From the NCBI GenBank assembly GCA_017303535.1, contig JAFLCO010000008.1:1-39447 (forward strand): a DNA stretch of 39,447 nt, written 5' to 3'. The stretch comes from Planctomycetota bacterium (GTDB lineage Bacteria; Planctomycetota; Planctomycetia; Pirellulales; PNKZ01). Shown piece after piece: positions 3,467 to 33,336 of the stretch. Positions within the stretch are counted from its first letter, which is position 1. Each line of letters starts with the position of its first letter. The notes below the pieces were generated by a model. It searched no databases and was not told the DNA's origin. It saw only the letters and a program-made list of their open reading frames with translations. The position numbers were made by a program, and so were the translations under genes.

Positions 3467-3532
3467 GTTGTTTCAGCATTAAGTCGAACGCGCCGAGCGT
3501 GTCGCTGATTTCGTGAGAACGTGAGCTTTATC

Positions 3533-5071: not shown

Positions 5072-5102
5072 TCGTCATGTTCGTTTCAAGTCATCTCGCG
5101 TA

Positions 5103-5139
5103 GGGTGGCTGGGGCATAGCGCAGCGGTGCCCCAGTTAC
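5103..5139 (+). repeat. Dispersed palindromic repeat, family II, single copy at a convergent junction
   Basis: The sequence from GGGTGGCTGGGGCATAGC to GTTAC contains the stem CTGGGGCA/TGCCCCAG. The same unit, with two mismatches, occurs in reverse orientation at 21625-21662. It lies between two convergent genes and could act as a bidirectional terminator. Confidence 0.75.
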
Positions 5140-5164
5140 ATGAGACGGTGGCCAAGAAAGGCTT

Positions 5165-5542
5165 CTAGCGCGACGGCGGCCCCAGCGGAGCAAACCACTT
5201 CGGCGGCGGCACGAACCTCATTTGCGCGACGAGCAACAGCACGCCAATCAAAATCACGAGCACCGGCAGCTCCGTATCGAGGGCCAGCTTGCCCGACTGC
5301 CGCAAGATCGACAGCACGCTGCACGCAATAAAAAACGGGCCGAACACGACGCTGAATTTGTCGAGCCCGCCGCTTAAGACGAAGGTCAACACGCCGACGG
5401 TCCCGAGCCCCAGCGTCCAGATCCAATTCACGCCGAGTCCGACGCCGCGCGCGCTCAACAGCCACGCAACGCCGAGCACAATGATGAGCACCGCCAACAC
5501 AAACGGGCCTTTGCCGGCGGCCGGAGCTTCCTTCTCAACCAT
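5165..5542 (-). CDS. Small four-helix membrane protein of unknown function
   Basis: 125 residues. ATG at 5542 is preceded by AGGTGA on the minus strand. After a short charged N-terminus (MVEKEAPAAGKG) there are four hydrophobic segments, roughly residues 13-29, 37-58, 62-80 and 88-106, the first two joined by a Gly-rich turn. The C-terminus is Pro-rich (VPPPKWFAPLGPP). The arrangement resembles LiaI/LiaF-type or DUF5668-like small membrane proteins, but there is no diagnostic motif and I do not assign a family. It runs opposite to the cytochrome-WD40 gene, and the next minus-strand gene ends 65 bases upstream of its start, so co-transcription with the carboxypeptidase is possible. Confidence 0.8.
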   Translation of the reverse strand: MVEKEAPAAGKGPFVLAVLIIVLGVAWLLSARGVGLGVNWIWTLGLGTVGVLTFVLSGGLDKFSVVFGPFFIACSVLSILRQSGKLALDTELPVLVILIGVLLLVAQMRFVPPPKWFAPLGPPSR

Positions 5543-5607
5543 GAATCACCTCATGCGATGGGAAAACGGGTTCGATGTTGCTGCAATAGATAAACGATAA
5601 CTCGGTG

Positions 5608-6852
5608 CTATTCGCCGGCCGCCGATCGCGGCGACTCGCGAAGGTATTTTTCGATCGCCAAGCCGAGTTGCCGACCGACCGTCGTATAGCCGGCGGTCGT
5701 GCCGTGCTCGGTGTTCCAAGACGTTTCGAGCGTCACGGCCACCACGTGCGGACGGCAGTTCATCGTCACCCAGTTCTTGCTGATCGCCTGCCACTGCGGC
5801 GAGTAGGCGGCTCCGCTCGGCTTGGTGTTCGGGCTCAGCACCAGCGGACCGACGATCTCACCTTTCGCGGCCGCGACGAATGTCGCCAGGTTACGCCGCC
5901 CCGTCGGGTTGAGTTCCTCGTCGGGCGACACGAAGAAAAACGGCCGAAGATCGCTCGGGGCGGGATTATGCAAATCGACGAACAAGTCGAACCGGCCGGC
6001 TTTATCGAGTTCGGCGATTCGCTTTTGCGCCGCGGCGACTTCCGGAAAATGCGGCGCGGCCGACCAATCGCGATTGTGGTCCTGCGGCACTTGGTTCTTC
6101 CCGCCGTTGCCGGTGGCCACGCTGTCGACGTCCATCACCGGCACGAACGTGACGATCGCTTGCCGGCGAAGTGCCGCGGCCCGCGGGTCGTCGCTGGTGA
6201 GCCAGTCGATGAAACCGACGCCGACCCAACTCCCGCCCGATTCCCAAGCGTGCTGCCGCGCTTGAATCCACAGTCCGAATCGCGACGCATCGTCGACGTC
6301 GGCCGACTTCTCATCGACGACGATCGCCGGCACGCCGCGCCCTGCGCGCGACTTGGCGAGTTCGAACTTCGCGACGTACGGATGCTCGGCGGCCAAACGG
6401 TCGACGAGTTCATGGGCGTCGCCGACGTCGAACACCGGCCCCCACGCGAACCAGGCCGACTTCGCGTTAATCCGCGCCGCGTAACTTTTGCGACCCTCTT
6501 TGGCGACGCCTTTCTCGGTTTGCAGCCATGTCTTCCCGCCGTCGATGCTGTAGGCCGCAAAGCCGGGCTGGGCCCACGACGCCGAAAGGTTCCCCGGAGC
6601 CCGATCGACCTCGATCGTCAACGTGCGCCCCGGTTCGATGCCGTCGACTTGAAACGACCACCAGCACGGCCAACCGCGCTTCGGATCGCCGGCCGGGCGC
6701 ATTTGAATGAGGCCCGATTCTTGATGGACGGCGATCACCTCGGCCGAAGCGTTCTCAAAATCGGTGCGTACGGAAAGTTCCGCGCGTGCGACACTCGTTC
6801 CTATAGCGAGAACGACGAGCGTGTTAAGAATGCCGGCAGGCGTGCGGTTCAT
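5608..6852 (-). CDS. M14-family zinc carboxypeptidase, secreted
   Basis: 414 residues from ATG 6852, which gives a signal peptide (MNRTPAGILNTLVVLAIGTS, cleavage after ARA). A longer frame begins at 6909 but adds only a basic tail before the signal. Residues about 25-150 form a beta-rich N-terminal domain as in M14 enzymes of the cytosolic carboxypeptidase type. The catalytic domain follows. The zinc motif HxxE is H201-A-W-E204 in QARQHAWESGGSW, the third zinc ligand is H295 in VDLHNPAP, and the catalytic Glu is likely E376 in LETSWNTEHG. All expected catalytic residues are therefore present. Predicted to trim C-terminal residues from peptides or modified proteins outside the cytoplasm. It is divergent from the DUF1990 gene, with a short shared promoter region. 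Confidence 0.9.
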   Translation of the reverse strand: MNRTPAGILNTLVVLAIGTSVARAELSVRTDFENASAEVIAVHQESGLIQMRPAGDPKRGWPCWWSFQVDGIEPGRTLTIEVDRAPGNLSASWAQPGFAAYSIDGGKTWLQTEKGVAKEGRKSYAARINAKSAWFAWGPVFDVGDAHELVDRLAAEHPYVAKFELAKSRAGRGVPAIVVDEKSADVDDASRFGLWIQARQHAWESGGSWVGVGFIDWLTSDDPRAAALRRQAIVTFVPVMDVDSVATGNGGKNQVPQDHNRDWSAAPHFPEVAAAQKRIAELDKAGRFDLFVDLHNPAPSDLRPFFFVSPDEELNPTGRRNLATFVAAAKGEIVGPLVLSPNTKPSGAAYSPQWQAISKNWVTMNCRPHVVAVTLETSWNTEHGTTAGYTTVGRQLGLAIEKYLRESPRSAAGE

Positions 6853-6976
6853 GTTTCGTCTCGACAAATTCACGTTCAGGAGTGCGGCGCCCTTCGCTCG
6901 CGGCGACATGTTGCACTACTATACCAGAAGCGCCCCGCCGTTTTTGGCCGGCCGCCGCTATCAAGATCAGTCGCTC

Positions 6977-7540
6977 ATGCACACGCTCGCTTGGCCGTCG
7001 GCCGCGGAGATTCGCAAGTTCCTCGCCTCGCAGATGGGCGCGCCGTTGACGTACTCGGCCGTGGGTGCGACCGCCACCGGCGACTATCCGTCGGGCTTTG
7101 ACGTCGATCACCGCCGCGCGGAGATCGGCCTCGGCGACGACTGCTTCCGCCGAGCTTGCGAGGCCCTACGCGGCTGGCGGCAGTTCGATCTCGGCTGGGT
7201 TCGCGCGATGCCGACCGATACGCCGCTCGCAACCGAAGCGCTGGTCGCCGTCTCGGCCAAGTTCGGAGGCGTTTGCACCACGAACGCCGCGCGGATCGTC
7301 TACGTCGTCGATGAGCCGTACCGTTTCGGCTTCGCCTACGGCACGTTGCCCCGGCATGTCGAACAGGGCGAAGAGCGGTTCCTCGTCGAACTCGTCGACG
7401 GCCGAGTTTATTACGACATCCTCGCCTTCTCACGCCCGCGGCACGTTTTGGCGCGGCTCGGTTATCCGCTGATGCGGCGTTTGCAGAAGCGCTTCGGCCG
7501 CGACAGCGCCGCGACGATGCGACGAGCGGTCGGCTCTTGA
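6977..7540 (+). CDS. DUF1990 family protein
   Basis: 187 residues from ATG 6977. An ATG at 6908 in the same frame gives 23 more residues, but those look unlike the family, and neither start has a strong ribosome site. Family features are clear: the N-terminal LTYSAVGATATGDYPSGFDV, then DHRRAEIGLGDDCFRRACEA, WRQFDLGWVRA, and the beta-rich C-terminal half with FAYGTLPRHVEQGEERFLVE. DUF1990 proteins occur in bacteria and plants and have no proven biochemical function; a lipocalin- or START-like ligand-binding fold has been suggested. There is no signal peptide, so it is probably cytoplasmic. It is transcribed away from the carboxypeptidase and converges on a DUF1501 gene. Confidence 0.88.
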   Translation: MHTLAWPSAAEIRKFLASQMGAPLTYSAVGATATGDYPSGFDVDHRRAEIGLGDDCFRRACEALRGWRQFDLGWVRAMPTDTPLATEALVAVSAKFGGVCTTNAARIVYVVDEPYRFGFAYGTLPRHVEQGEERFLVELVDGRVYYDILAFSRPRHVLARLGYPLMRRLQKRFGRDSAATMRRAVGS

Positions 7541-7542
7541 AA

Positions 7543-7623
7543 AGCGAGCGGCGGGGTTTATCCCCGCCGTCTGGTTCGCATTGCTCAATTCGCGGACGGC
7601 GGGGATGAACCCCGCCGCTCGCT
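7543..7623. terminator. Long near-perfect inverted repeat at a convergent junction (family IV pair)
   Basis: Two 29-base arms, 7543-7571 and 7595-7623, pair with one mismatch around a 23-base loop. Each arm is itself a hairpin (GGCGGGG-ttta-tCCCCGCC). It fills the gap between the stops of the DUF1990 and DUF1501 genes. A diverged single arm is at 30616-30646. Use as a bidirectional terminator is inferred. Confidence 0.75.
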
Positions 7624-7632
7624 GAAGCGCCC

Positions 7633-9048
7633 TTAAAACAGCTCCCGAATCACGTCCCCTTGTTCGATCACGCGCGTCGGCCGACCGGTGAAGTCGTTGA
7701 AGGCGATTTCCTTGTCGACCCCAAGAATGTCGAAAATCGTCGCATGCAGGTCGCCCGGCGTGAGCGGGTGATCCTTCGGGCGTTCGCCGCGGGCATCGGT
7801 GCTGCCGATCACACGGCCGCCCTTTACGCCGCCGCCGGCGATGAGCACGCTCAGCGCGTTGCCCCAGTGGTCGCGGCCCGGCGTCCCCATGCTTCCCGGA
7901 GGTCCGCCGTTGCCGCCGTCGTTCATCTTCGGCGTGCGGCCGAATTCGCCGCAGAGCAGCACCAGCGTCGTGTCGAGCAAGCCGCGCTGGTCGAGGTCTT
8001 CGATCAGGGCCGAAGTCATTTGGTCGATGATCGGCAGGTTGCGGTGATAGCCCGATTGCAGGTTCCAGTGATGGTCCCAACCGCCGGAATGCACGGAGAC
8101 GAACGTCGTGCCCGCCTCAACAAGCCGACGGGCAAGTAGTGCGCTCTGGGCCCACGAGTGCCGGCCGTAGCGGTCGCGGGTCTTGTCGCTTTCCTTGGAA
8201 ATATCGAAGGCTTCCGTGGCCCGCGCGCCGGTCACCAGTTCGTAGGCTTGCGTGTCGAAACGATCGGCGGCCTCGAGGGCACCGCTGTTGTCGATTTCGC
8301 GGCGCATGTTGTCCATCGCGCTCAAGAGCGAGCGTCGGTTTTGCAATCGCGGCAGATCGAGCCCGGCCACCTGCGAGAGGTTCTGCACCTTGAACGTCTT
8401 GCCGTTCGGGTCGCCGCCGGTGTCGAACGGGTCGTACTGTTTGCCGAGGTAGTGGCCGCCGAAATAGCCGGGCCGCAAACCGATGCTCATCGCGTGCGGC
8501 ACCGCCACGTGAGCGGGCATCGCCGGATGCCGAGGGCCGGTCATCTTCACGGCCGCCGCGCCGATGAACGGATGCTTTCCGGCGTTGGCCGCGCCGCTCA
8601 CGCCACCCTTACCGGTCAGCATGTAGTGGCCGCCGGTGAAGTGGTCGCCGTTGTCATGATGGATCGAACGGATCACCGAGAACTTGTCGGCGATCTTGGC
8701 CTGCAGCGGAAACAACTCCGTCATTTCCATGCCGGGCACGTTGGACTTGATCGGGCTCCAAATGCCGCGGTACTCGGCCGGGGCCTCGGGCTTCATGTCG
8801 TAGGTGTCGATGTGGCTCGGTCCGCCGTCGAGCCACAAGAGAATGACGCTGGTGTTCTTCTTCCCGCCGGCGGCTTTGCCCATAGCGCTCGCCGTCGCGG
8901 CGGCCGAAGCTTCCTTGGCCCGCAGGATGTCGGCCAGCCCGAGCGACCCGATGCCGGCCATGCCGATCTGGAGGAAGCTGCGGCGGCTGACACCGTCGCA
9001 GTAGGGCGCACGACGGGAGGCGGTTGAATCGCAAGCGATGCGAAACAT
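7633..9048 (-). CDS. DUF1501 family protein, Tat-exported (solitary copy)
   Basis: 471 residues. ATG at 9048 has GAGG upstream on the minus strand. The N-terminus holds a twin-arginine signal, SRRSFLQIGMAGIGSLGLAD, at about residues 21-40, so export in folded form is expected. DUF1501 proteins are related to sulfatase/alkaline-phosphatase-type folds. The typical segments are present: LWLDGGPSHIDTYDMKPEAP near the N-terminus, SVHSGGWDHHWNLQSGYHRN, GEFGRTPKMNDGGNG and GRDHWGNALSVLIAGGGVKG. The family has no settled function; many planctomycete copies sit beside DUF1549/DUF1553 genes. This one does not: its upstream neighbour is 1.17 kb of non-coding sequence, and its nearest possible partner (908-3466) is on the other strand. 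Confidence 0.92.
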   Translation of the reverse strand: MFRIACDSTASRRAPYCDGVSRRSFLQIGMAGIGSLGLADILRAKEASAAATASAMGKAAGGKKNTSVILLWLDGGPSHIDTYDMKPEAPAEYRGIWSPIKSNVPGMEMTELFPLQAKIADKFSVIRSIHHDNGDHFTGGHYMLTGKGGVSGAANAGKHPFIGAAAVKMTGPRHPAMPAHVAVPHAMSIGLRPGYFGGHYLGKQYDPFDTGGDPNGKTFKVQNLSQVAGLDLPRLQNRRSLLSAMDNMRREIDNSGALEAADRFDTQAYELVTGARATEAFDISKESDKTRDRYGRHSWAQSALLARRLVEAGTTFVSVHSGGWDHHWNLQSGYHRNLPIIDQMTSALIEDLDQRGLLDTTLVLLCGEFGRTPKMNDGGNGGPPGSMGTPGRDHWGNALSVLIAGGGVKGGRVIGSTDARGERPKDHPLTPGDLHATIFDILGVDKEIAFNDFTGRPTRVIEQGDVIRELF

Positions 9049-9282
9049 GGCGGAACCTCAAAACGTTAGGCGGGGCGGGAACTCGGGCGGAGCCGAACGT
9101 CGGAAAACCAGCGGTCTCAGGCGGGCGGCACGGACGAGGGCGGCAGGCAGGCGGGATTCATCCAGCAATTCTTATATGACCGAGAATATCCGGCGGTTAC
9201 GGGAAAAGTCAAAAAATATGGAGTTTGGCCGCCGGCAGGACGGAAAGCGGGCGAAAACTACGCGAATCGCGCGGTGAGCGGC

Positions 9283-9396
9283 GTCTTAGCCCCCGTCGAT
9301 AGCGGCGCAGCCGCGTACGCCGGGGGCGGCGTCAAACGATCGACGGCGTTGATAACTCGATCGACGCTGCCCCGGGCGACTCGCCCGGGCTAAGAC
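9283..9396. repeat. Composite palindromic element with terminal inverted repeats
   Basis: The 114-base segment is bounded by a 10-base perfect inverted repeat, GTCTTAGCCC at 9283-9292 and GGGCTAAGAC at 9387-9396. Inside are GCCCCCG/CGGGGGC, a repeated GATCGACG, and a compact CCCGGGCGA/TCGCCCGGG hairpin. The plan is that of a REP doublet or a very small MITE. No coding capacity. Confidence 0.55.
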
Positions 9397-9427
9397 TCAA
9401 ACCAATTCGCGGAACAGAAATCACCAT

Positions 9428-9455
9428 CTGTAGGCGTCGCCCTCCGTGGCGTTCC
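9428..9455 (+). repeat. Dispersed repeat, family III, single arm
   Basis: CTGTAGG....GCCCTCCGTGGCGTTCC differs at three of 28 positions from the left arm of the perfect inverted repeat at 33263-33336. It is a lone half-element. Confidence 0.6.
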
Positions 9456-9499
9456 GCCCGTCGAATTGGGAATCGACTTTCGATTGCCTGGAAATTGTA

Positions 9500-9601
9500 G
9501 GTGCGTGCATCCGACCCCCTTGTGCACGCACCCTTAGTTCTAAGTGACGTCGTGCGTGCAAAACGGACCTCGTTGCACGCACCTCCGCCGGTTTGCACGC
9601 A
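9500..9601. repeat. Cluster of five TGCGTGCA/TGCACGCA sites forming two hairpins
   Basis: GGTGCGTGCA (9500-9509) pairs perfectly with TGCACGCACC (9523-9532), and GTGCGTGCAA (9552-9561) with TTGCACGCAC (9573-9582). A further TTTGCACGCA lies at 9592-9601. It may be a protein-binding array or a pair of RNA hairpins; no function is known to me. Confidence 0.5.
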
Positions 9602-9771
9602 GTAACCGTAGCGCGGTTGTAAATGCAATTCGGTTGTCAATAAGTTAGGAAACCGAACAGAAATCGGAGATCGCAGATTGGGCCGCGGGGAAAGACTCCG
9701 GTCGCTAACGCTCCCGGCTCGCTGTCGAGGTCGATGGTGATTTAGGAACATGGAAGTATTCGGCCCCATAA

Positions 9772-9804
9772 ATGCCCCCTTGCTTGCGCGGCGGGGCTAG
9801 TGTG
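9772..9804 (+). repeat. Dispersed repeat, family I, single copy
   Basis: The unit reads TGCCCCCTTGCTTGCG followed by CGGCGGGGCTAGTGTG. Bases 9773-9808 are identical over 36 bases to 18735-18770; related copies are at 17721-17812 and 18666-18697. Confidence 0.75.
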
Positions 9805-9839
9805 TGGTGGTTGTGATTTACGGCCATCCGGCCTGGATT

Positions 9840-9864
9840 GCCCCCGGTTTAAAGAACCGGGGGC
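9840..9864. repeat. GC-rich hairpin
   Basis: GCCCCCGGTT (9840-9849) and AACCGGGGGC (9855-9864) form a perfect 10-base stem with a five-base loop. There is no T-run, and no gene ends immediately before it. Confidence 0.55.
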
Positions 9865-9937
9865 TAAAGTCGGCGCTGTGTGCGCGCTGCGGCGCACCCC
9901 GTAGTTTCCCAAATTCTCCCGGCCGATTCCAATCAAC

Positions 9938-9975
9938 TTTTGGCCGGCCGGATCAAGTCTGCCGGCCGGCCAAAA
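9938..9975. repeat. 14-base perfect inverted repeat
   Basis: TTTTGGCCGGCCGG (9938-9951) pairs with CCGGCCGGCCAAAA (9962-9975) around a 10-base loop. Outside the stem, CAAC and GTTG also match if a four-base bulge (TTAA side) is allowed. It lies about 250 bases before the repeat-protein gene. Confidence 0.55.
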
Positions 9976-10222
9976 TTAAGTTGAATTCGACCAGTGTTGC
10001 GCACCGGCGACAGCCGGCCGGGCTTTGATCGACGCCTCTTGCCTCCGGCCGCTCTTCGGCCGAACATGAGCCGAAATGCGACCGTTTTTGCAGCTTCCGA
10101 CATCCGGCATGTGAAATGCTTTGAACGCCCGGCGTCGGGCTGCTCCAATAGGGATGTCGCGTGCGGACCGACCCATCCGCCCAGATTTGACTCCTGGATC
10201 TGCCCCTGTGGAGACAATTGCC

Positions 10223-11254
10223 ATGACCCGCTCGTCGCCGCTGTTCGTCACCTTGCTCGTTGTCGCCGGTTCGACTTCTTCCGCCTTTGCCCAAACCGAA
10301 AACGGCGCTACCGCCCCGCCTGCCAACGGCAGCCTGCCGCCGGCCGCTCGGCCCGGCTACCACTACGTCGCGCGGCAGATTTCTGAAGTCGTCGAGGAAG
10401 AGCAGCGCGTGACCGTGGAAAAGCCGGTCGTCGTCACGGAGTACCAAGAACAAGTTCGCACCGTTCGCAAGCCGGTCTTCGTGCAAGAACTGCGCGAGGA
10501 GCGGCGCACAATGCAGAAGCCGATCGTCGAAACGGTGTATAAGGAAGAAGTGACGACCGTAGAGCGCCCGGTGACGGAAACCGTCTATCAAGAGCAGGTC
10601 CGCACGGTGCAGAAGCCGGTCTATGAAACGGTCGAGCAAGAGCAAACGTCGACCGTTTACGAACAACAAACCGTTTGGACCAGTCGCTATTCCGGCGGCC
10701 TCGTGATTCAAACGCCGACGACCATGAGCGTGCCGCGGACCGTCGTGACGCGCGTCCCGACGCAAACCGTGCGGTACGTCAACGAACAAGTCGTCGAACG
10801 CGTGCCGCATACGCAAGAGCGCCTCATCGCCGAGCAAGTCGTTCGTAAGGTGCCGGTCGAACAAACCCGGTATGTCGAAGAGACGGTCGTCGAAAAAATT
10901 CCCGTAAGCGTCCAGCAATTCGAGGAAGAGCAAATCGTCGAGCGCATTCCGGTGCAGGTGCAGAAGGTCATCACCGAAGAAGTCGTTCGCAAGGTACCGG
11001 TGATGAAGCAGAAGACGGTTTACGAAGAACGGCCGATTGATGCTGCGGCGCCTCAAGCGAGTGCTCCGGCCGTCAACGGCCATTCGGTCTACTCTTCGGC
11101 GCCGACGGCCGACCAACGCCCCGCGCTGCCGGCCACGTTCGCCGACCCGAACCAGCCGACGCCGACCACCGCGCAAAAGCCGCTGGTGATTGAAAACGCT
11201 CGCGTCGTCATCAACGGTTCGGAAGTGTCGATCACGTCGGAACCGAAGAAGTAG
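10223..11254 (+). CDS. Secreted tandem-repeat protein (YTV-like repeats)
   Basis: 343 residues from ATG 10223 (GGAG at 10210-10213), opening with a signal peptide (MTRSSPLFVTLLVVAGS, cleavage after AFA). After a short linker there are two blocks of roughly 16-residue repeats. Block one has five to six units like EQVRTVQKPVYETVEQ. Block two has five units like EQVVRKVPVEQTRYVE and EQIVERIPVQVQKVIT. A Tyr/Gln/Thr-rich spacer (YEQQTVWTSRYSGG) separates them, and an Ala/Pro-rich tail ends the protein. The regular Val/Thr/Glu/Lys alternation suggests extended beta structure. Short YTV-type repeats are known from Rhodopirellula proteins of unknown function, and this looks like that class. An envelope or surface structural role is inferred. 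A clear terminator follows at 11287. Confidence 0.88.
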   Translation: MTRSSPLFVTLLVVAGSTSSAFAQTENGATAPPANGSLPPAARPGYHYVARQISEVVEEEQRVTVEKPVVVTEYQEQVRTVRKPVFVQELREERRTMQKPIVETVYKEEVTTVERPVTETVYQEQVRTVQKPVYETVEQEQTSTVYEQQTVWTSRYSGGLVIQTPTTMSVPRTVVTRVPTQTVRYVNEQVVERVPHTQERLIAEQVVRKVPVEQTRYVEETVVEKIPVSVQQFEEEQIVERIPVQVQKVITEEVVRKVPVMKQKTVYEERPIDAAAPQASAPAVNGHSVYSSAPTADQRPALPATFADPNQPTPTTAQKPLVIENARVVINGSEVSITSEPKK

Positions 11255-11286
11255 ACCGTAGCCGAATTCAATAGTCCCAAGTAGAG

Positions 11287-11330
11287 TGCTCCGAGCGTGG
11301 CTTGCCGCCGCGCTCGGAGCATTTTCGTTT
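11287..11330 (+). terminator. Rho-independent terminator of the repeat-protein gene
   Basis: GCTCCGAGCG (11288-11297) and CGCTCGGAGC (11311-11320) form a perfect 10-base stem, followed by ATTTTCGTTT. It lies 33 bases after the stop at 11254 and before ATG 11352, so the next gene is probably transcribed separately. Confidence 0.85.
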
Positions 11331-11351
11331 CTACTTGCCGTTGGTCGCCTC

Positions 11352-12875
11352 ATGCCCTTTCGTTTTGCTCTCGTGGTCGGCGTTGCGATACTGTCGGGAT
11401 TCGGCTTCGGCGTTGCCTTGGCGAACGCCGCGGAAGCGGACGTGATCGACATCGGCGCTCGGCGCGAGTTGTTTCTCGACCTGCGGCTCATCGATTCGTT
11501 TACCGGCGTGCGGCATGTTTTACAGCTGCCGCGCGACGAAGGGCCCGTGCTGGCCCGCGACGAAGCGTGGGAAGACGAGCGGCCTTCGTTCGTGTTCGGC
11601 ACGATCTTGCGCGACGGCGACCGGTACCGCATGTACTACCGCGGTCACCACGGCGGCGCGGAAATCACTTGCCTCGCCGAATCGCCCGACGGCCGCACTT
11701 GGACCAAGCCGAAGCTCGGACTCATCGAGCGCGGCGGCACTCGCGACAACAACATCGTGCTCGACGATCAACTCCTCACGCACAACTTCGCCCCGTTTAT
11801 CGACGAGAACCCCGCCGCGCCGCCCGAAGAGCGCTATAAGGCGATCGCCGGCGCGCCGCGCAATTCCAAAGCCGATCCGAAAACCACCGGCCCGCGAGCT
11901 TTGGTTTCCGCCGACGGTCTGCACTGGCGGCTGAAGCAAGAGATGCCGGTGCTCTCGATGGCGACGGTGCTCGCGTCGCTGGAGGGCTTGCGCGAGGCGA
12001 TGCTCTTCGATTCGCAGAACGTTGTGTTTTGGTCGACGATGGAACGCCGGTACGTGATGTACTTTCGCGTTTACAAAGACGGCCTACGCCGCGTGGCTCG
12101 CGCCGAAAGCGATGACTTCGTGAATTGGACGAACCTGGAACTCGTCGAATACGGCGACGGCGCCGCAGGCCCCGGCCTCGTGCAGGATCTCTACATCACG
12201 CAGCTCAGCCCGTACTATCGCGCCCCGCATCAATATGTGGGCATCGGCGCACGACTGCTGAGCAAGGCGGAACGCCGGATCGTCACCGATGAACAAGCCG
12301 CGGCGATGCAGCTCGACATGCGTCAGGCCCACGGGCTCTCCGACGCCGTGCTGATGTCTTCGCGCGGCGGTCCGACGATCGATCGGCCGTTTATGGAGGG
12401 TTTCCTGCGGCCGAGCGAGCGGCTCGAAGATTGGGTAGCCCGCAGCAACTACCCGATGCGCAACATCGTGCCGACGGGGCCGCTGGAGATGTCGTTCTAC
12501 GTGCAACATCACAACGGCCAGCCGTCGGCTCACGTGCGCCGGCATAGCCTGCGGATCGACGGTTTCACGTCGCTCCAAGCGCCGTACTCCGGCGGCGAGA
12601 TCCGGACGAAGCCGCTGAAGTTCGCCGGTCGCCGGCTGCTCTTGAACTTTGCGACGTCGGCGGCCGGCGACATTTCCGTGGAGCTTCAAGACGCCGCCGG
12701 ACGGCCGATCCCCGGGTTCGCCCTGGCCGACGCCGTGAAAACGGTCGGCAATGAACTCCAGCGCGCCGTGCGCTGGAAATCAGGCGACGACGTTTCTCCA
12801 CTGGCCGGCCGGTCCGTTAGGCTGCGCATCGTGATGCGCGACGCGGATTTGTACGCCTTTCGCTTCGGCGAGTAG
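11352..12875 (+). CDS. Secreted beta-propeller, glycoside-hydrolase-like protein of unknown activity
   Basis: 507 residues from ATG 11352. The longer frame from GTG 11286 would start inside the preceding terminator. The signal peptide is MPFRFALVVGVAILSGFGFG, with cleavage near ANA. The sequence then runs GARRELFLDLRLIDSFTGVR, a style of opening common in planctomycete and verrucomicrobial proteins related to GH32/GH43 five-bladed propellers. Blade-like phrases follow: YRMYYRGHH, CLAESPDGRTWTKPKLGL, LVSADGLHWRLKQEMPVL, YVMYFRVYK and SDDFVNWTNLELVEY. The C-terminal 120 residues form a beta-sandwich-like segment (GGEIRTKPLKFAGRRLLLNF). Carbohydrate binding or hydrolysis is inferred from this resemblance; I cannot assign catalytic acids. 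Confidence 0.85.
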   Translation: MPFRFALVVGVAILSGFGFGVALANAAEADVIDIGARRELFLDLRLIDSFTGVRHVLQLPRDEGPVLARDEAWEDERPSFVFGTILRDGDRYRMYYRGHHGGAEITCLAESPDGRTWTKPKLGLIERGGTRDNNIVLDDQLLTHNFAPFIDENPAAPPEERYKAIAGAPRNSKADPKTTGPRALVSADGLHWRLKQEMPVLSMATVLASLEGLREAMLFDSQNVVFWSTMERRYVMYFRVYKDGLRRVARAESDDFVNWTNLELVEYGDGAAGPGLVQDLYITQLSPYYRAPHQYVGIGARLLSKAERRIVTDEQAAAMQLDMRQAHGLSDAVLMSSRGGPTIDRPFMEGFLRPSERLEDWVARSNYPMRNIVPTGPLEMSFYVQHHNGQPSAHVRRHSLRIDGFTSLQAPYSGGEIRTKPLKFAGRRLLLNFATSAAGDISVELQDAAGRPIPGFALADAVKTVGNELQRAVRWKSGDDVSPLAGRSVRLRIVMRDADLYAFRFGE

Positions 12876-13079
12876 GGCCGGCTTCAGCAGCGGCAAAAGC
12901 CGTACGTTCGGGAATATCAAATCCTTCGCTGTTGACCCTGGATTTTTGGGGCGGTAACGTATCAAGATGTTCTTATGTTCGGGTCGATGCTTTAGGTAGC
13001 GATCAGCCTGTAAGAACTCCCGCCTGCGATCGACACCCCGCCTGCCCACCCGCCTTTATTCCGTTCGTGGAGGTCTCTC

Positions 13080-15119
13080 GTGCCCCACGCCGTTTTCTGT
13101 TTTCGCGCTGCGCTTTGCGCTCGGGCCGTTCGTTGGTCCGGCGCGGTCGCGTCGTTTGTCTTGCTCGCCGGTCCCGCCTTGCACGCGGCCAATAACTTGC
13201 CGAGCCCCAAGCCGGCGGCCAAGGCGGAGAAGATCGTGGCCGCGAAGGCTTCGCTCGCGTCCGAGATTGATCGGCTGATCGCCGCCGAACGACTCGCGCC
13301 GCTCGGCGCCTTGGCCGACGACGGCGAGTTTCTTCGCCGCGTGATGCTCGATTTGCACGGCATCATTCCGAGCGTCGAAGAGGCCCGTGAGTTTCTGGCC
13401 GATAAATCGCCCGACAAGCGCGAGCGGCTCGTCGACGAACTCTTAGCCGGCCCGCGGTTCGCCCGCCACATGGCGACGGTGCTCGACGTGATGTGGGCCG
13501 AGCGCCGCGGCGACAAAGTCGTGAAGGCCGCGGAGGGGTACGAGTGGTTGTACGAATCGCTGGCCAAGGGGCGGCCGTACAACGAGATCGTTCGCGACAT
13601 TCTCACGGCCGACGACCAAAAGCCGGAACTGCGGCCGGCGTCGAAATTCTTTCACGATCGCGATTGCGAGCCGAACCAGATCACGCGCGACGTGAGCCGG
13701 ATGTTCTTCGGCATGGATATGCAGTGCAACCAGTGCCACGACCATCCGACCGTCGATGATTACGCCATCGGCGACTACTACGGGCTGTACGCGCTCGTCA
13801 GTCGCACGTACTTGCACACTGACAAGAAGACGAAGGCCAAGGTCATCGCCGAAAAGGGAGAAGGGGAGGCGAGTTTCAAATCGGTCTTCACCGGCGAGGC
13901 GGCCGATCGGGTCGTGCCGCGATTGCCGCGCGGCGCGGCCTTGAAAGAGCCCGAGGTGAAGAAGGGCGACGAGTATCTCGTCAAACCGGATAAGGGCGAG
14001 AAACCGGTTCCGAAACATTCGCGGCGCGCGCTCTTGGCGACCGCCGCGACCGATGGGACCAATCCGATCTTTGCTCGCAACGCGGTGAACCGGCTGTGGG
14101 CGCACGTGTTCGGTCGCGGACTCGTGCATCCGGTCGACTTCATGCATCCGGAGAATCCGCCCGGCTATCCGGCGGTGCTCGACCGGCTGACGGCCGAGTT
14201 TCAGAGCGGCGGCTACGACATTCGCCCGATCATTCGCACGCTGGTGCTCACGCGGACCTATCAAACGACGTATCTTCTGCCCGATGCCACGGCGCTGCGG
14301 CGCGGTGAGGCCGCCAAGCGGCTGAAGACTTGGGAAGCGGAACAGGTGCGCCTTGAAACGTCGCTCAAGGAAGCTGAAGCCGCAGCCGCCAAAGCCGAGG
14401 GCGTGAAGCGCGAGGAGGTGTTGGCGCAGGCCCGCGCGTTGCGCACGCTGCTGCGTGCCCGTGAGCGGCGGATCGACGAGGCGCGGCAGGTCGCGGCCTT
14501 CGAGAAGATCGCATCAACCGATAAGGCCGGCGCGGCCCGCGCGTGGGAGTTGCTCGTCACGCGCTGGACCGAACAAGGGGACGTGCCGCTCCTGAAACCG
14601 CTCGGGCCCGAAGCGTTCGCCTCGAGCATGTTGCAGGCGACCGGTTTCGTGACGATCAGCGAGAGCAAAGCTCTGGCGACGTTGAAGAAGAGCCCGCCGA
14701 AGGAACTGGTGAAGCTGTCCGAAGCCGAGCGGCCGCGGATGGAATCAATGTGGGTCGATCGGCAAACGTTCGACCCGCTGAAGAGCAATTATGCCCGCTT
14801 CGTGGAACTGTACGGCGAAGCGACCGGCGGCGACTTCTCGGCGACGCTCAATCAAGCCCTCTTCTTCGGCAACGGCGGCGTGGTCGACGGCTGGCTCTCG
14901 CCGAAGTACGAGAACCTCGCGGCGCGGCTCGTTGCCGAGAAAGACGCCGCGCGGCTGGCCGACGAAATGTATCTAGCCGTGTTCACGCGGTCGCCGACCG
15001 ACGAAGAGCGGGCCGACGTCGCCGGTTTTCTCCAAGGTCGCGAGAAGGAAAAGCTCGACGCCGTGAAAGAGATGCTCTGGGCTTTGCTCTCCAGTAACGA
15101 ATTTCGATTCAATCACTAA
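13080..15119 (+). CDS. DUF1549/DUF1553 protein with haem-type motif and inserted coiled coil
   Basis: 679 residues starting at GTG 13080; GGAGG at 13069-13073 and an immediate signal peptide (VRWSGAVASFVLLAGPALHA) support this start. A possible promoter, TTGACC at 12932 with TAACGT 17 bases on, precedes it. DUF1549 spans roughly 57-240, including FLRRVMLDLHGIIPS and the CxxCH motif CNQCHDHP at 216-223. DUF1553 begins near 315 (NPIFARNAVNRLWAHVFGRG). Residues about 410-500 are a highly charged Ala/Glu/Arg coiled coil between RTYQTTYLLPD and PLGPEAFASSML, which I take as an insertion into the usual DUF1553 layout. It has no BIG2 domain, unlike the 908-3466 paralogue. It heads an operon with a DUF1501 gene (23-base gap) and a WD40 gene. 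Haem binding is inferred. Confidence 0.93.
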   Translation: MPHAVFCFRAALCARAVRWSGAVASFVLLAGPALHAANNLPSPKPAAKAEKIVAAKASLASEIDRLIAAERLAPLGALADDGEFLRRVMLDLHGIIPSVEEAREFLADKSPDKRERLVDELLAGPRFARHMATVLDVMWAERRGDKVVKAAEGYEWLYESLAKGRPYNEIVRDILTADDQKPELRPASKFFHDRDCEPNQITRDVSRMFFGMDMQCNQCHDHPTVDDYAIGDYYGLYALVSRTYLHTDKKTKAKVIAEKGEGEASFKSVFTGEAADRVVPRLPRGAALKEPEVKKGDEYLVKPDKGEKPVPKHSRRALLATAATDGTNPIFARNAVNRLWAHVFGRGLVHPVDFMHPENPPGYPAVLDRLTAEFQSGGYDIRPIIRTLVLTRTYQTTYLLPDATALRRGEAAKRLKTWEAEQVRLETSLKEAEAAAAKAEGVKREEVLAQARALRTLLRARERRIDEARQVAAFEKIASTDKAGAARAWELLVTRWTEQGDVPLLKPLGPEAFASSMLQATGFVTISESKALATLKKSPPKELVKLSEAERPRMESMWVDRQTFDPLKSNYARFVELYGEATGGDFSATLNQALFFGNGGVVDGWLSPKYENLAARLVAEKDAARLADEMYLAVFTRSPTDEERADVAGFLQGREKEKLDAVKEMLWALLSSNEFRFNH

Positions 15120-15142
15120 ACTCTCCGACGAAGGAGATTGCG

Positions 15143-16447
15143 ATGCGCTGCGACTATTCTTGCCAATCGGCCGAGCACGGGCTCACGCGCCGCGGGTTCT
15201 TGCGCACGGCCGGCGGTGCGGGACTGGGGGCGTTGGCGATCGGCGGCATCACGGGCACACCCGGCGGCGCGAGCTGGTTGTCCCCCGCCGTGGCCGCGGA
15301 GATGAGCAAGTCGCAAAAACGCATCCTCACGATCTTTCTGCACGGCGGCGTAAGCCAGCTGGAAACGTGGGACCCGAAGCCGAACACCGACACCGGCGGG
15401 CCGTTTCGCCCGATCAGCACCAGCGTGCCGGGCATTCAAATCTCGGAACTGCTGCCGCACACCGCCAAGCAGATGCACCATCTGAGCTTGGTGCGCAGCA
15501 TCAACACGAAGAACAGCAGCCACGGGCCCGGCGCCGTGCAAATGCAGACCGGCCACAACGAGATGGGGGCGCCGCATCCGCACCTGGGCGCCGTGGTCGC
15601 CAAGGCGCTGACGCCGGAGAAGTTCGCGCTGCCGGGCCACATTCTCATCCGCGGCGGCGGCAGTAGCCGATCGAGCGCCGCATTTCTCGGCCCGCGCTAC
15701 GGCAGCGTGGTGTTGGAAGACGGCAAAGCGCCGCAATACTCGGAGCGACCGTCGGCCCTCTCGCTCACGAGCGACGAGCGCCGTCAAGAATTCCGCCGCT
15801 TGGCGAACGATCGCTTCGCCGACAAACGCCGCACGGCCGACACCGACGCCTACACGTACAGCTACGATCAAGCGATGCAGCTCATGGCGCAGCGCGACGT
15901 GTTCGACGTCGCCAAGGAGCCGGCCCGCGATCAGGAGCGTTACGGTTCGCACGAGTTCGGCAAGCACTGCCTGCTCGCACGGCGGTTGCTGGAGAAGGGC
16001 GTGCCGTTCGTGCAGGTGAACCACTCCAACTACGACACGCACTTCGAAAACTTCGACTATCACATCGAACAGCTCGGCGAGTTCGATCGGCCGTTTGCGA
16101 CGCTGATCAGCGACTTGGCGGTAAGCGGCCTGCTGAAGGATACGCTCGTCGTGGTGATGTCGGAGTTCGGACGGACGCCGAAGATCAACAGCCGCTATGG
16201 TCGCGATCATTGGGGCACGGCGTGGAGCGTCTGCCTCGGCGGCGCAGGCTTGCAAGCCGGCGCGGTGATCGGCAAGACGAACGACAACGGCACCGCGGTC
16301 GTCGATCGCGAGATCGACCACGGGCACTTGTTCCATACGTACTTGCAAGCCGTGGGCATCCCGAGCAGCGACGCGTTCACGATCGCTGGCCGGAAGTTTC
16401 CGATCGCCGATCCGGCCAAGGGTCCGATCAAGGAGCTGTTGGCGTAA
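15143..16447 (+). CDS. DUF1501 family protein, Tat-exported
   Basis: 434 residues; ATG 15143 follows GAAGGAG. The Tat signal LTRRGFLRTAGGAGLGALAI is near the N-terminus. Diagnostic DUF1501 segments are ILTIFLHGGVSQLETWDPKP, GNTGG-type spacing before VPGIQISELLPHTAKQM, NHSNYDTHFENFDYH, SEFGRTPKINSRYGRDHWG and GGAGLQAGAVIGKT. The fold is related to the alkaline phosphatase/sulfatase group, but the reaction is unknown. Its gene lies 23 bases after a DUF1549/DUF1553 gene and its TAA overlaps the ATG of the next gene, so the three products are probably made together. It is a paralogue of the solitary copy at 7633-9048. Confidence 0.94.
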   Translation: MRCDYSCQSAEHGLTRRGFLRTAGGAGLGALAIGGITGTPGGASWLSPAVAAEMSKSQKRILTIFLHGGVSQLETWDPKPNTDTGGPFRPISTSVPGIQISELLPHTAKQMHHLSLVRSINTKNSSHGPGAVQMQTGHNEMGAPHPHLGAVVAKALTPEKFALPGHILIRGGGSSRSSAAFLGPRYGSVVLEDGKAPQYSERPSALSLTSDERRQEFRRLANDRFADKRRTADTDAYTYSYDQAMQLMAQRDVFDVAKEPARDQERYGSHEFGKHCLLARRLLEKGVPFVQVNHSNYDTHFENFDYHIEQLGEFDRPFATLISDLAVSGLLKDTLVVVMSEFGRTPKINSRYGRDHWGTAWSVCLGGAGLQAGAVIGKTNDNGTAVVDREIDHGHLFHTYLQAVGIPSSDAFTIAGRKFPIADPAKGPIKELLA

Positions 16448-17628
16448 TGGCGGACAAGAAGAAGGACGACAAGGCGAAGCCGGCGGCCAAGACGCCGGAG
16501 CCGGTCAAAAAGCCGGTTGCCAAGGTTAGCGACTCTTCGAAAAAGACCGACCCCGCGAAACCGCCAGGGGATGCGGCGGCGAAGGGTGATGTGAAGTCGC
16601 CGGATGCCGTCGATCCGACGCTCGTCCACATGGCGGCGGCTTGGAAGTACTCACGACCGCTCACGGCCTGCCGCTACTCGCCCGACGGCAAGTACGTGTT
16701 CGTCGGCACGGAAGACTACACCGTGCAGCGCATTCGCCTGAGCGACGGCCGGCTGACGCCGCTGGTCGGGCATGAAAGTTGGGTCCGCGCGATCGGTTTC
16801 ACGCCCGACGGCCGCACGACGCTCACCGCCGGCTACGACGGCCGGATTCTTTGGTGGGACACGGCCGCCGAGAAGCCCGCGCCGCTGCGAAAGGTGCAAG
16901 CGAGCGACGGCTGGATTCGCGCCTTGGCCGTCAGTCCCGACGGCCGCTACGTCGCCACGGCCGCCAACGACGGGCACGTTCGCCTGCACAACATCGCCGA
17001 TGGTCGGCTGCGGGCCACGGGTCGCCGGCACGATTCGCACGTGTACCACGTGGCGTTTCATCCGGCCGGCGGCGAGCTAGCGTCGTGCGATCTCAAGGCC
17101 CAGTGCAAGGTCTGGGACGTTTCGCAACTCGCCAAAGAAAGCGACGCCTACGCCGCCGACTTGAAACTCGTGCGCGAGTTTCCTTTCGCGCCGATTTACA
17201 AATACGATACGCAGTTCCGCGCCGATATCGGCGGCGCGCGGAGTATGGCCTTCGGCGACGGCGGCAAACTGCTGGCGGCCGGCGGCGTGACGAACGTCAC
17301 CAACGCGTTCGCCGGCATCGGCAACGCAGCCTGGGTCGCCGTTAACTTCGCCGACGGCAAGCAGGCCACCGTGCATACGAGCAAAGAAAAGATCAACGGC
17401 ATGGGCTGGGGGCTCGCCTGGCACCCGGCGGGCTATTGGGTGGCGGCCGGCGGCGGCAATCAGGGCGGTTTCCTCTACTTCTTTAAGCCGGGCGCCGACG
17501 CCGAGTTCTTCAAGTTCAAACTCCCTGACACGGCCCGCGATCTCGCTCTTGCCCCCGACGGAAAAAGCGTCGCCGTCGCCCACTTCGACGGCAATCTCCG
17601 CGTGTATCGGTTAGGCCCGAAGATTTGA
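16447..17628 (+). CDS. WD40 repeat protein with Lys-rich N-terminus, no signal peptide
   Basis: 393 residues. The ATG at 16447 overlaps the preceding stop as TAATG, so translation is coupled to the DUF1501 gene. The same frame is open further upstream within the DUF1501 gene, but those codons give an Arg-rich shadow. The first 60 residues are a disordered Lys/Ala/Pro segment (MADKKKDDKAKPAAKTPEPV). Then come about six or seven WD40 blades (CRYSPDGKYVFVGTEDYTVQ, ILWWDTAAEK, VSPDGRYVATAANDGHVRLH, CKVWDVSQLA, and LAPDGKSVAVAHFDGNLRVY at the end). Unlike 3533-5071 there is no cytochrome domain and no signal peptide, so it looks cytoplasmic despite its exported operon partners. It probably provides a protein-binding surface; partners unknown. 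Confidence 0.92.
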   Translation: MADKKKDDKAKPAAKTPEPVKKPVAKVSDSSKKTDPAKPPGDAAAKGDVKSPDAVDPTLVHMAAAWKYSRPLTACRYSPDGKYVFVGTEDYTVQRIRLSDGRLTPLVGHESWVRAIGFTPDGRTTLTAGYDGRILWWDTAAEKPAPLRKVQASDGWIRALAVSPDGRYVATAANDGHVRLHNIADGRLRATGRRHDSHVYHVAFHPAGGELASCDLKAQCKVWDVSQLAKESDAYAADLKLVREFPFAPIYKYDTQFRADIGGARSMAFGDGGKLLAAGGVTNVTNAFAGIGNAAWVAVNFADGKQATVHTSKEKINGMGWGLAWHPAGYWVAAGGGNQGGFLYFFKPGADAEFFKFKLPDTARDLALAPDGKSVAVAHFDGNLRVYRLGPKI

Positions 17629-17720
17629 TCACCACAGAGGCACAAAGACGTCAGGAGACTGTGGGGACGGCGGCCAGGGACTGAGGAGACGGGAAATGAA
17701 AACGTGGAGCGGCTCGCCAT

Positions 17721-17812
17721 CACATACTAGCCCCGAAGCGCAAGCGAGGGGGCATGGTAACGTTGACCGTTGAAGTCGCATGTCCCCTTGCTAGCGCGGC
17801 GGGGCTAGTGTG
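17721..17812. repeat. Dispersed repeat, family I, inverted pair at a convergent junction
   Basis: The arm at 17721-17756 (CACATACTAGCCCCGAAGCG...) is an imperfect reverse complement of the arm at 17779-17812 (...CGGCGGGGCTAGTGTG). Together they can form a long hairpin between the WD40 gene and the TauE/SafE gene. A terminator role on both strands is inferred. Confidence 0.75.
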
Positions 17813-17834
17813 GAGTGGTCGGTCGTAAGGTAAT

Positions 17835-18581
17835 TCAAAACGCCCCCAGCATTCGCAGCGCCGCGATCGCCGCGAAGAGCAGCAGTAAACTGTCGAACAG
17901 TTTTTGCGGCACGATCTTCACCAGCCGCCGGCCCACGAGTAGGCCGACGACGACGCACGGCGCGAGCAGTGCGTTAACCGACAACGTCTCGGGGCCGATC
18001 AGTCCCAGACCGGTGCTGAACGGAAGTTTGAAAACGTTGATAATCAGGAAGAACCAGGCCGACGTCCCGACGAATTCGTACTTCGGCAGGCTCACGGCCA
18101 ACAGATAGATGGCGACGATCGGACCGGCGGCGTTGGCCAACATCGTCGCGATGCCCGCCGTCAAGCCGAGTGCGACAGCGAAACCTCGCGCATGCGGTAC
18201 ATGGGCGAAGGCGTCGGGCCGCCACATCCGGCCGAGTTGCAACAGGGCCAGCCCCAGCACGATCAGGCCAAGGATCGGCGTTAAAGTCGCGTCGTTCAAA
18301 TGCTTCATCATCTGCCAGCCGATCACGACGCCGATCATCGCCGGCGGCAGAATCTTCAGCACGTAGTCCCAACGGGCATGTTGCCGAAACGCGGCGACGG
18401 CCGAGACGTCGCCGACCACCAACAGCGGCAAGAGCAGTCCGGTCGACTTCATCGGTCCGAACAGCCAGGCGAAGATTACGATATGAAACAGCCCGACGCC
18501 GGCGAAGCCCGACTTGCTGAAGCCGATTCCCATAGCGGCGACCGCGGCCCAGCACCACTGTGATGTCGAAAGATCGGGCAT
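17835..18581 (-). CDS. TauE/SafE family sulfite/anion exporter-like permease
   Basis: 248 residues; ATG at 18581. The protein is almost wholly hydrophobic, with about seven or eight membrane segments. It shows the two related halves typical of TauE/SafE: an N-terminal AAMGIGFSKSGFAGVGLFHI and a central ALGLTAGIATMLANAAGPIV. Members of the family move sulfite, sulfoacetate or other small organic anions across the inner membrane. The substrate cannot be read from the sequence. The two sulfatases downstream make a sulfur-related role tempting, but they are not in the same transcription unit. It converges on the WD40 gene and is divergent from the phosphoesterase gene. Confidence 0.9.
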   Translation of the reverse strand: MPDLSTSQWCWAAVAAMGIGFSKSGFAGVGLFHIVIFAWLFGPMKSTGLLLPLLVVGDVSAVAAFRQHARWDYVLKILPPAMIGVVIGWQMMKHLNDATLTPILGLIVLGLALLQLGRMWRPDAFAHVPHARGFAVALGLTAGIATMLANAAGPIVAIYLLAVSLPKYEFVGTSAWFFLIINVFKLPFSTGLGLIGPETLSVNALLAPCVVVGLLVGRRLVKIVPQKLFDSLLLLFAAIAALRMLGAF

Positions 18582-18665
18582 GAAGATGCTTGTGCGAGGT
18601 GCGTGGTTCTTGGTGCTTGGTTCGGTCGGTCGGAGCGGCCGAGTTTAAAGCGGCCGACCATATCG

Positions 18666-18766
18666 CACTAGCCCCGCTGCGCAAGCAAGGGGACATGAGA
18701 ATGTCGAATGCACTCGGCATTCTGTATCTTTCCGTGCCCCCTTGCTTGCGCGGCGGGGCTAGTGTG
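18666..18766. repeat. Dispersed repeat, family I, inverted pair in a divergent promoter region
   Basis: The left arm at 18666-18697 (CACTAGCCCCGCTGCGCAAG...) and the right arm at 18734-18766 (...CGGGGCTAGTGTG) are near-perfect reverse complements around 36 bases. The pair lies between the start codons of the TauE/SafE gene and the phosphoesterase gene. Confidence 0.75.
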
Positions 18767-18831
18767 TGGTAGTGCGTCGATCATAATAGGCGGCCCGCCC
18801 CTGCTTCCGCCTTTTGCCGCGAGTCGATGCC

Positions 18832-21588: not shown

Positions 21589-21662
21589 GGGTGGCTGGGT
21601 CTGGAGCGTACTCGCGAAGACCCAGTAACTGGGGCACCGCTTTGCTATGCCCCAGCCACCCG
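21589..21662. repeat. Dispersed repeat, family II, inverted pair between the sulfatases
   Basis: GGGTGGCTGGGT at 21589 opens one element, with AGACCCAG closing its own hairpin (21617-21624). The second, at 21625-21662, reads GTAACTGGGGCACCGC to GCCACCCG and matches 5103-5139 in reverse with two mismatches. It fills the gap between two convergent genes. Confidence 0.75.
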
Positions 21663-23366: not shown

Positions 23367-23448
23367 TCCTTATTGACAACAGAGTTGCAATTACAGAAAG
23401 TACGCACATGCAACTAAGTTGCAATTACGAATCGGTCGTCAATAAGGA
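23367..23448 (+). promoter_or_regulatory. Leader of the prepilin gene that could hide its ribosome-binding site
   Basis: TCCTTATTGAC (23367-23377) is a perfect 11-base reverse complement of GTCAATAAGGA (23438-23448), and the right arm contains most of the AAGGAG ribosome site of the gene at 23457. Between the arms, AGTTGCAATTAC occurs twice (23383-23394 and 23417-23428). This is compatible with a hairpin that limits translation or with an operator; neither is shown. Confidence 0.45.
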
Positions 23449-30615: not shown

Positions 30616-30646
30616 AGCGAGCGGCGGGCTTTACGCCTGCCGTCTG
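30616..30646 (+). repeat. Dispersed repeat, family IV, single arm at a convergent junction
   Basis: AGCGAGCGGCGGGCTTTACG... matches the left arm at 7543-7573 with about four or five differences and can fold on itself. It lies eight bases after the DoxX stop, before the convergent gene ending at 30682. Confidence 0.6.
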
Positions 30647-33262: not shown

Positions 33263-33336
33263 CTGTAGGGAACGCCCTCCGTGGCGTTCCGTGATTTGCC
33301 TTGTGCTCGGAACGCCACGGAGGGCGTTCCCTACAG
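33263..33336. repeat. Perfect 28-base inverted repeat, family III, before the flavin reductase
   Basis: The arm 33263-33290 (CTGTAGGGAACGCCCTCCGT...) is an exact reverse complement of 33309-33336, with an 18-base loop. It ends 18 bases before ATG 33355. A single arm with three differences is at 9428-9455. Confidence 0.85.

Follow-up and report, generated by a model that had tools for sequence, protein, structure and literature searches.

CTAG-footed REP pairs and a flanked HUH/Y1 transposase gene in a Planctomycetota genome, with a composite repeat that carries single REPs

In the Pseudomonas REPIN/RAYT system (Bertels and Rainey 2011, PMC3116915), REPs form inverted doublets that fold into one long hairpin, the RAYT gene is flanked by its own REPs, the REPs persist in the genome, and singlets are read as decayed remnants. 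The TnpAREP proteins of E. coli, Stenotrophomonas and Marinomonas (PMC8266576; PDB 4er8) have an HUH/Y1 fold and use the foot of the REP as guide; the E. coli protein tolerates no GTAG change, S. maltophilia cleavage is reduced with CTAG, and A3G4 of the foot has been proposed to pick CT. GTAG and CGTC super-families of tetranucleotide-tagged, often dimeric palindromes were described by Di Nocera (2013, PMC3733652), who mentioned Planctomycetes; 'CTAG' and four Planctomycete genus names do not occur in the main text of that paper. The TnpAY1 class 3 of Quentin et al. (2018, PMC6006769) has mainly Planctomycetes as hosts and atypical, weak structures in high copy. Its foot, CnGA, came from few genes (10 members, 5 of them without motifs, the sample being enlarged to 24). 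Class 3 TnpA had been described on a small number of genes, and their target structures were poorly defined. In the open literature, with subscription journals mostly outside the scope of the search, no title or abstract described CTAG REPINs in Planctomycetes. The repeats described here are likewise tetranucleotide-tagged palindromes, often dimeric, and resemble the Pseudomonas system in their doublets, in a transposase gene flanked by its own REPs and in the persistence of the REPs. In contrast to that system, they have a CTAG foot, a short and weak hairpin with a GCAA loop and apparently another class of TnpA, and their singlets are about as conserved as the arms of pairs and lie mostly in a composite repeat.

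The whole stretch of DNA analysed, called the window, is 39,447 nt long and lies on contig C552. The genome, from a Planctomycetota bacterium (G000), has 6.58 Mb in 573 contigs. The original prediction, made from the letters of the window, had placed in it five copies of a CTAG-ended repeat, including two inverted pairs. All five copies were found at the predicted places, with no match in 100 shuffles, and both inverted pairs were present (REPIN 1 and REPIN 2, Table 1). The ends said to be common to the copies were so in general, except that the copy at 17721-17756 ended in CTAGTA instead of CTAGTGTG. The identity of 9773-9808 and 18735-18770 over 36 bases was exact, with a difference at the 37th base. 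It had been taken to mean that the copies are recent or under conversion, but copies genome-wide average 87-90% identity and many have identical 28-mers, so it points neither to a recent event nor to a local one. The five copies in the window lay between its main ORFs, and the ORFs on either side of REPIN 1 were named by eye as WD40-like and TauE/SafE-like. REPINs had folds of -33 to -36 kcal/mol with z-scores of -6.9 and -8.4 (REPIN 1: -33 kcal/mol, z -6.9). The hairpins of single REPs were weak, with the foot unpaired, and their stability was not above that of shuffles (z -1.1, -1.1 and +0.6).

Table 1. Repeat features of the window, in window coordinates
Feature	Position	Strand	Remarks
Doublet of second REP family (GCGAGCGGCGGGG..)	7543..7623		flanks RAYT-like gene elsewhere in G000
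Composite repeat copy	9282..9950	+	dispersed, non-coding, ~670 bp in window
143-nt core, subfamily A	9498..9640	+	two covarying hairpins and a fifth half-site
Core hairpin 1	9501..9531	+	GTGCGTGC/GCACGCAC, 15-nt loop
Core hairpin 2	9554..9580	+	GCGTGC/GCACGC, 15-nt loop; covaries
Single CTAG REP	9772..9804	+	match at 9775-9802 (+); fixed module of composite repeat, not REPIN half
REPIN 1	17721..17812		REP (-) 17725-17752, ~30-nt loop, REP (+) 17783-17810; CTAG feet outward
REPIN 2	18666..18766		REP (-) 18666-18693, 43-nt loop, REP (+) 18737-18764
GTAG-footed REP doublet (CTGTAGGGAACGCC..)	33263..33336		29-nt copy, 90%, in composite at 9428-9456

The unit had been expected to recur in the genome, and a pattern drawn from the window copies (three mismatches or fewer) gave 126 copies in G000, in 66 + 60 places, against none for the same pattern read backwards. 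With a second consensus there were 125 copies in G000, and copies were also found in two genomes of the same genus, G003 and G002, in which a wider pattern gave 42 and 19 copies, respectively. Neither the second consensus nor the wider pattern found a copy in G001. In 1,357,275 bp of G000 sampled mostly for repeat content, 138 copies made up 34 close pairs and 70 singlets. The sample was selected, in that 80 of its 100 regions, like the window, carry a REP or a core of the composite repeat because they were chosen for it; 20 'arbitrary' contigs came from outside the match list, and their zero copies therefore prove nothing.

The two REPs were arranged -+, with the CTAG feet outward, in all 34 close pairs. 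Over the 68 pair arms the four foot letters were C in 68, T in 67, A in 64 and G in 66, so that the foot was CTAG and not the canonical GT[AG]G. Outward of CTAGTR, conservation faded over some 15 nt. In 26 of the 34 pairs (17 expected) one arm had A as its terminal letter and the other arm G, which means that the two ends of a pair differ; the CTAGTA end of the copy at 17721-17756 falls under this regular difference. Loops were mostly 15-50 nt long; four measured 87-118 nt, and at least three of these contained, as judged by eye, a further inverted repeat. REPINs with such an extra repeat lie at L081 (from 9762), L092 (from 4601) and L102 (from 10090), with repeats of the types ACCACAGAG..CTCTGTGGT and GAGATCGC.., and a sequence resembling them was seen near position 17630 of the window.

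A search of G000 with PF01797 found four genes. One of them, at G000:C290:24048-24536, has an inverted CTAG-REP doublet on each side, at a distance of 10 nt upstream and of 28 nt downstream, and is thus the flanked Y1_Tnp/RAYT-type gene that the idea of mobilised REP doublets called for. Its 162-aa HUH/Y1 product contains the motifs NHVH, WWT and YVLNCQ, and scored 25.5 bits against PF01797 (cut-off 23) and 17.6 bits against NCBIfam NF047646 REP_Tyr_transpos, under the cut-off of 80. By its printed motifs the protein would go with class 3 TnpA, whose signature NHVH, W[TA] and Y----Q (PMC6006769) it carries, rather than with the classical RAYTs. We did not file the CTAG repeats under the type described there, because the protein motifs are the same but the foot in that report is CnGA. 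An AF2 model of a relative from Blastopirellula marina (pLDDT 91.6) matched 2xm3, 2vih and 4er8 (ISDra2, IS608 and the REP-bound transposase 4er8) with E 1.4e-4 or better; together with the PF01797 match, this model predicts an HUH/Y1 TnpA fold for the C290 protein. The protein ends right at the glutamine of Y----Q and sits on a branch of length 1.07 in the protein tree (median 0.41), and for these two reasons it may be inactive.

In IS200/IS605 elements tnpA is the repeated mobile unit, whereas in G000 one close copy of the C290 gene was found. The next relative of its protein in the same genome, with 35% identity, is encoded by a RAYT-like gene at G000:C229:955-1434 and is flanked by a second REP family (GCGAGCGGCGGGG TTTAT CCCCGCCGTC), copies of which lie in the window at 7543-7573, 7591-7621 and 30616-30646. 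From the flanks of C290 and C229, two REP families of the window each have a gene of their own in G000, and the pairing of the second family with a RAYT-like gene recurs in G002 and G003. The PF01797 search also contained an ordinary IS200-type TnpA of 148 aa at G000:C454:636-968 (L031). The presence of this strong match (6.5e-23) would allow the repeats to be MITE-like IS200/IS605 derivatives mobilised by it, but C454 was not among the matches listed for the unit, which flanks the C290 gene instead, and we consider such an origin very improbable. RAYTs at C71 and C112 were rejected as partners of the CTAG REP, since by eye no copies were seen beside either.

The reading of the repeats as REP doublets mobilised by a RAYT was supported for the four paired copies and for the transposase. 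It needs qualifying as to the CTAG foot, the 'class 3' TnpA and the copy at 9772, which lies in a composite repeat. We consider it highly probable that the repeat is the REP unit in a REPIN/RAYT system of a Planctomycetota type. In the proposed mechanism, the single-copy HUH/Y1 transposase encoded at C290 would recognise a weak hairpin in single-stranded DNA, CCCC..GC-GCAA-GC..GGGG, with the unpaired CTAG foot in front of it. Two REPs facing each other over a loop, mostly 15-50 nt, would let a single strand fold into a long hairpin with CTAG at its outer ends, and the enzyme, by analogy with TnpAREP, would cut at CT dinucleotides and move or copy the pair. We infer the cutting, the strand transfer and the present activity of the C290 system.

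An alignment of nine proteins was used as query and gave 97 relatives of the C290 protein, almost all from Planctomycetota, of which 80 were kept. The hairpin core CCCGNNGCGCNNGCGNNGGG (two mismatches or fewer) occurred within 400 bp of the gene at 50 of these 80 loci, at 33 of them on both sides; the same pattern and distance gave no hairpin core at the remaining 30. There were 175 matches at the 80 loci against 4.7 expected. The feet included CTAG, CCAG, CAAG, GTAA, CCAA and TTAG, among others, and over 41 loci gave the consensus NNAR, which is neither GTAG nor CnGA, the third letter being A in 153 of 169. Within loci, the fraction of copy pairs with identical feet was 0.551, compared to 0.074 after shuffling (maximum 0.126 of 2000), and a common foot was found on both sides of the gene at 31 of 34 loci.

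The doublets on both sides of the C290 gene, and the same hairpin, with locus-specific feet, next to 50 of the 80 related genes from the phylum, argue against inert or regulatory hairpins (terminators or mRNA stabilisers) that were spread by general recombination and lie beside a transposase by coincidence. Such roles have been hypothesised for REPs (PMC3733652), and some REP sites are orthologous in sister species although the gene is missing there, but this explanation appears improbable.

For the REPIN/RAYT reading, the relation of foot and protein was examined on a tree of 66 proteins. Fifteen of the 80 loci had been dropped as they had no open frame with an HUH motif; 58 of the 65 open frames selected for that motif also had Y----Q. 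The foot test comprised 33 of the 41 loci, with eight left out, and the C290 foot was entered by hand as CTAG because the CCCG pattern falls one base off on CCCCG. The last foot letter, G or A, changed twice on the tree (300 shuffles: mean 8.2, minimum 5), compared to 16 changes for the first two letters (mean 20.9, minimum 16). The whole foot tracked the tree weakly, with 17 changes (mean 23.4, minimum 19). By these counts the last letter goes with the protein and the other letters are labile. If A3G4 picks CT, as proposed in PMC8266576, the clade with A-ending feet should cut elsewhere, and the prediction is that NNAG leads to CT and NNAA to TT. The class 3 repeats found here have one hairpin core across Planctomycetota and a foot that varies between loci, its last letter tracking the protein tree, and they offer dozens of natural guide variants for the question of how the foot selects the cut. 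What makes the CTAG REPIN variant of real interest is that its guide foot is free to vary.

The copy at 9772, which had been listed with the paired copies, was not half of a pair but a module of a composite repeat. The sequence at 9282-9950 recurred in the first sampled set at 38 further places, 33 in G000 and five in G002; four weak ones were omitted from the composite analysis, as was one of 33 core sequences. With the window copy as query, no composite was found in the REP regions of G003. Hairpin modules follow one another along the composite, mostly in the same order. They include a GTAG REP, a TTAG-footed pair whose loop contains the CTAG REP, and a core of 143 nt. A fuller consensus had two more hairpin modules than the window copy, in which the left TTAG hairpin is absent; strict TTAG patterns were found in 43 composites on the left in 15 and on the right in 20. 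A known RNA was rejected as the identity of the composite, as nothing in the window matched Rfam at gathering thresholds, and 9000-10200 had no match at E<=1. In core hairpin 1, A-U was replaced by G-C in nine and U-A by C-G in three of 32 copies. With a covariance model of the core, G000 gave at least 56 places, G002 gave 15 matches (some being the opposite strand of one site) and G003 gave 41 diverged matches, whereas nothing matched in the 54 other genomes; the core is restricted to the genus.

One CTAG REP, in a single orientation, was found 277-524 nt downstream of 43 of the 45 cores of type A or B, and none of the 45 had a CTAG REP pair. These singlet REPs have thus multiplied along with the composite, and those like 9772 would mostly be its passengers and not products of RAYT insertion or pair decay. 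Mean conservation was 0.870 for singlets in composites, 0.896 for singlets elsewhere and 0.885 for pair arms, all three groups having been found under one mismatch limit. Hitch-hiking in a larger repeat is a second route by which REP singlets become common, other than REPIN decay. Taken further, the whole family might spread within the composite, REPIN pairs being composites reduced to their REP part. This would fit the 44 of 70 singlets that lie by A/B cores, and the 11 C-type cores, of which three had a pair at one offset (-96) and one had a singlet. In contrast, 31 of the 34 pairs have no core nearby and no A/B core has a pair; moreover, G003 has 42 REPs and 41 cores, and the 38 composite copies that a search with the composite of the window retrieved include no G003 REP region. 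We give a spread of this kind very little credence and retain the REPIN/RAYT reading for the pairs.

Among 49 cores, 34 were of subfamily B, 12 of A and three mixed or unclear. Independent parallel changes were rejected as the source of the A and B alleles: with 46 of 49 cores purely A or B, and three changes of the A/B state on a tree of the other core columns against a minimum of eight in shuffles, A and B are inherited subfamilies. A role of the composite as a regulon leader, with a promoter-like right end firing into the left-hand gene, was not adopted. By crude gene calls, with both genomes summed, the left-hand genes pointed away in 31 of 46 called cases and the right-hand genes showed little bias (39 of 70 minus); a promoter scan at the right end of the window copy found none. 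Two TTGCAATTACA/TTATTGACAA-like repeats, inverted with respect to each other, lie at 23367-23448 of the window; as a pair they are similar to the composite core's outer stem.

Of 20 core regions of G003, seven could be placed close to the core against the sampled G000 sequence. A core was present at the matching place in six of them (window/L281, L087/L295, L108/L292, L104/L290, L088/L296 and L101/L284) and not in L289/L085. Five of these six orthologous core loci were of type A/B in G000 and of type C in G003. Near the core generally one flank alone aligns and the G000 sample is enriched for cores, so the subtype difference is suggestive; it could be accounted for by conversion among the copies or by a targeted replacement, but not by ordinary random insertion. 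The composite is a stranger object than the REPINs. Tentatively, and with the odds against it, it may be a new kind of dispersed non-coding element, with a structure-conserved 143-nt core, co-changing recognition sites (subfamilies A, B and C) and places conserved in sister species. In this view it would spread as its younger subfamilies replace older ones there, in a homing-like or conversion-like manner, and the REPs of several RAYT systems would be its passengers. The core at L295 of G003 has a left flank that matches L087 and a right flank that matches L132, both of G000; this is either a rearrangement that broke at the composite or a chimeric assembly.

Several REP sites are common to G000 and G003, with flanks alignable on both sides (REPIN 1 at 17.7 kb of the window being one), and the CTAG REP family is consequently older than the split of the species. 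A RAYT flanked by CTAG REPs was not found in G003 (99% complete, 42 copies) or G002 (19 copies), which indicates that REPINs persist without the gene; a gene of the C290 type was either lost from these genomes or missed. One site has the full pair in G000 and its left arm only in G002 and G003. At another, G000 has a REPIN, G003 a 16-nt spacer and G002 a different spacer without a REP. We infer mobility of the REPINs from sequence, with this one occupied/empty site seen. At L088 (about 1740-13450, G000:C290), the flank to the right of the element runs in the opposite orientation to that in G003, with breakpoints near the composite's CTAG REP and at the REPIN beside the RAYT; given putative contig joins, the inversion looks as if it were REP-mediated.

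Copies of the GTAG-footed REP (CTGTAGGGAACGCC..) were found in G003, G006, G010, G028 and other genomes. The window also contains a 37-nt hairpin repeat (GGCTGGGGCA..TGCCCCAG) in two copies, at 5103-5139 and 21625-21661, which are 95% complementary and lie 16 kb apart.
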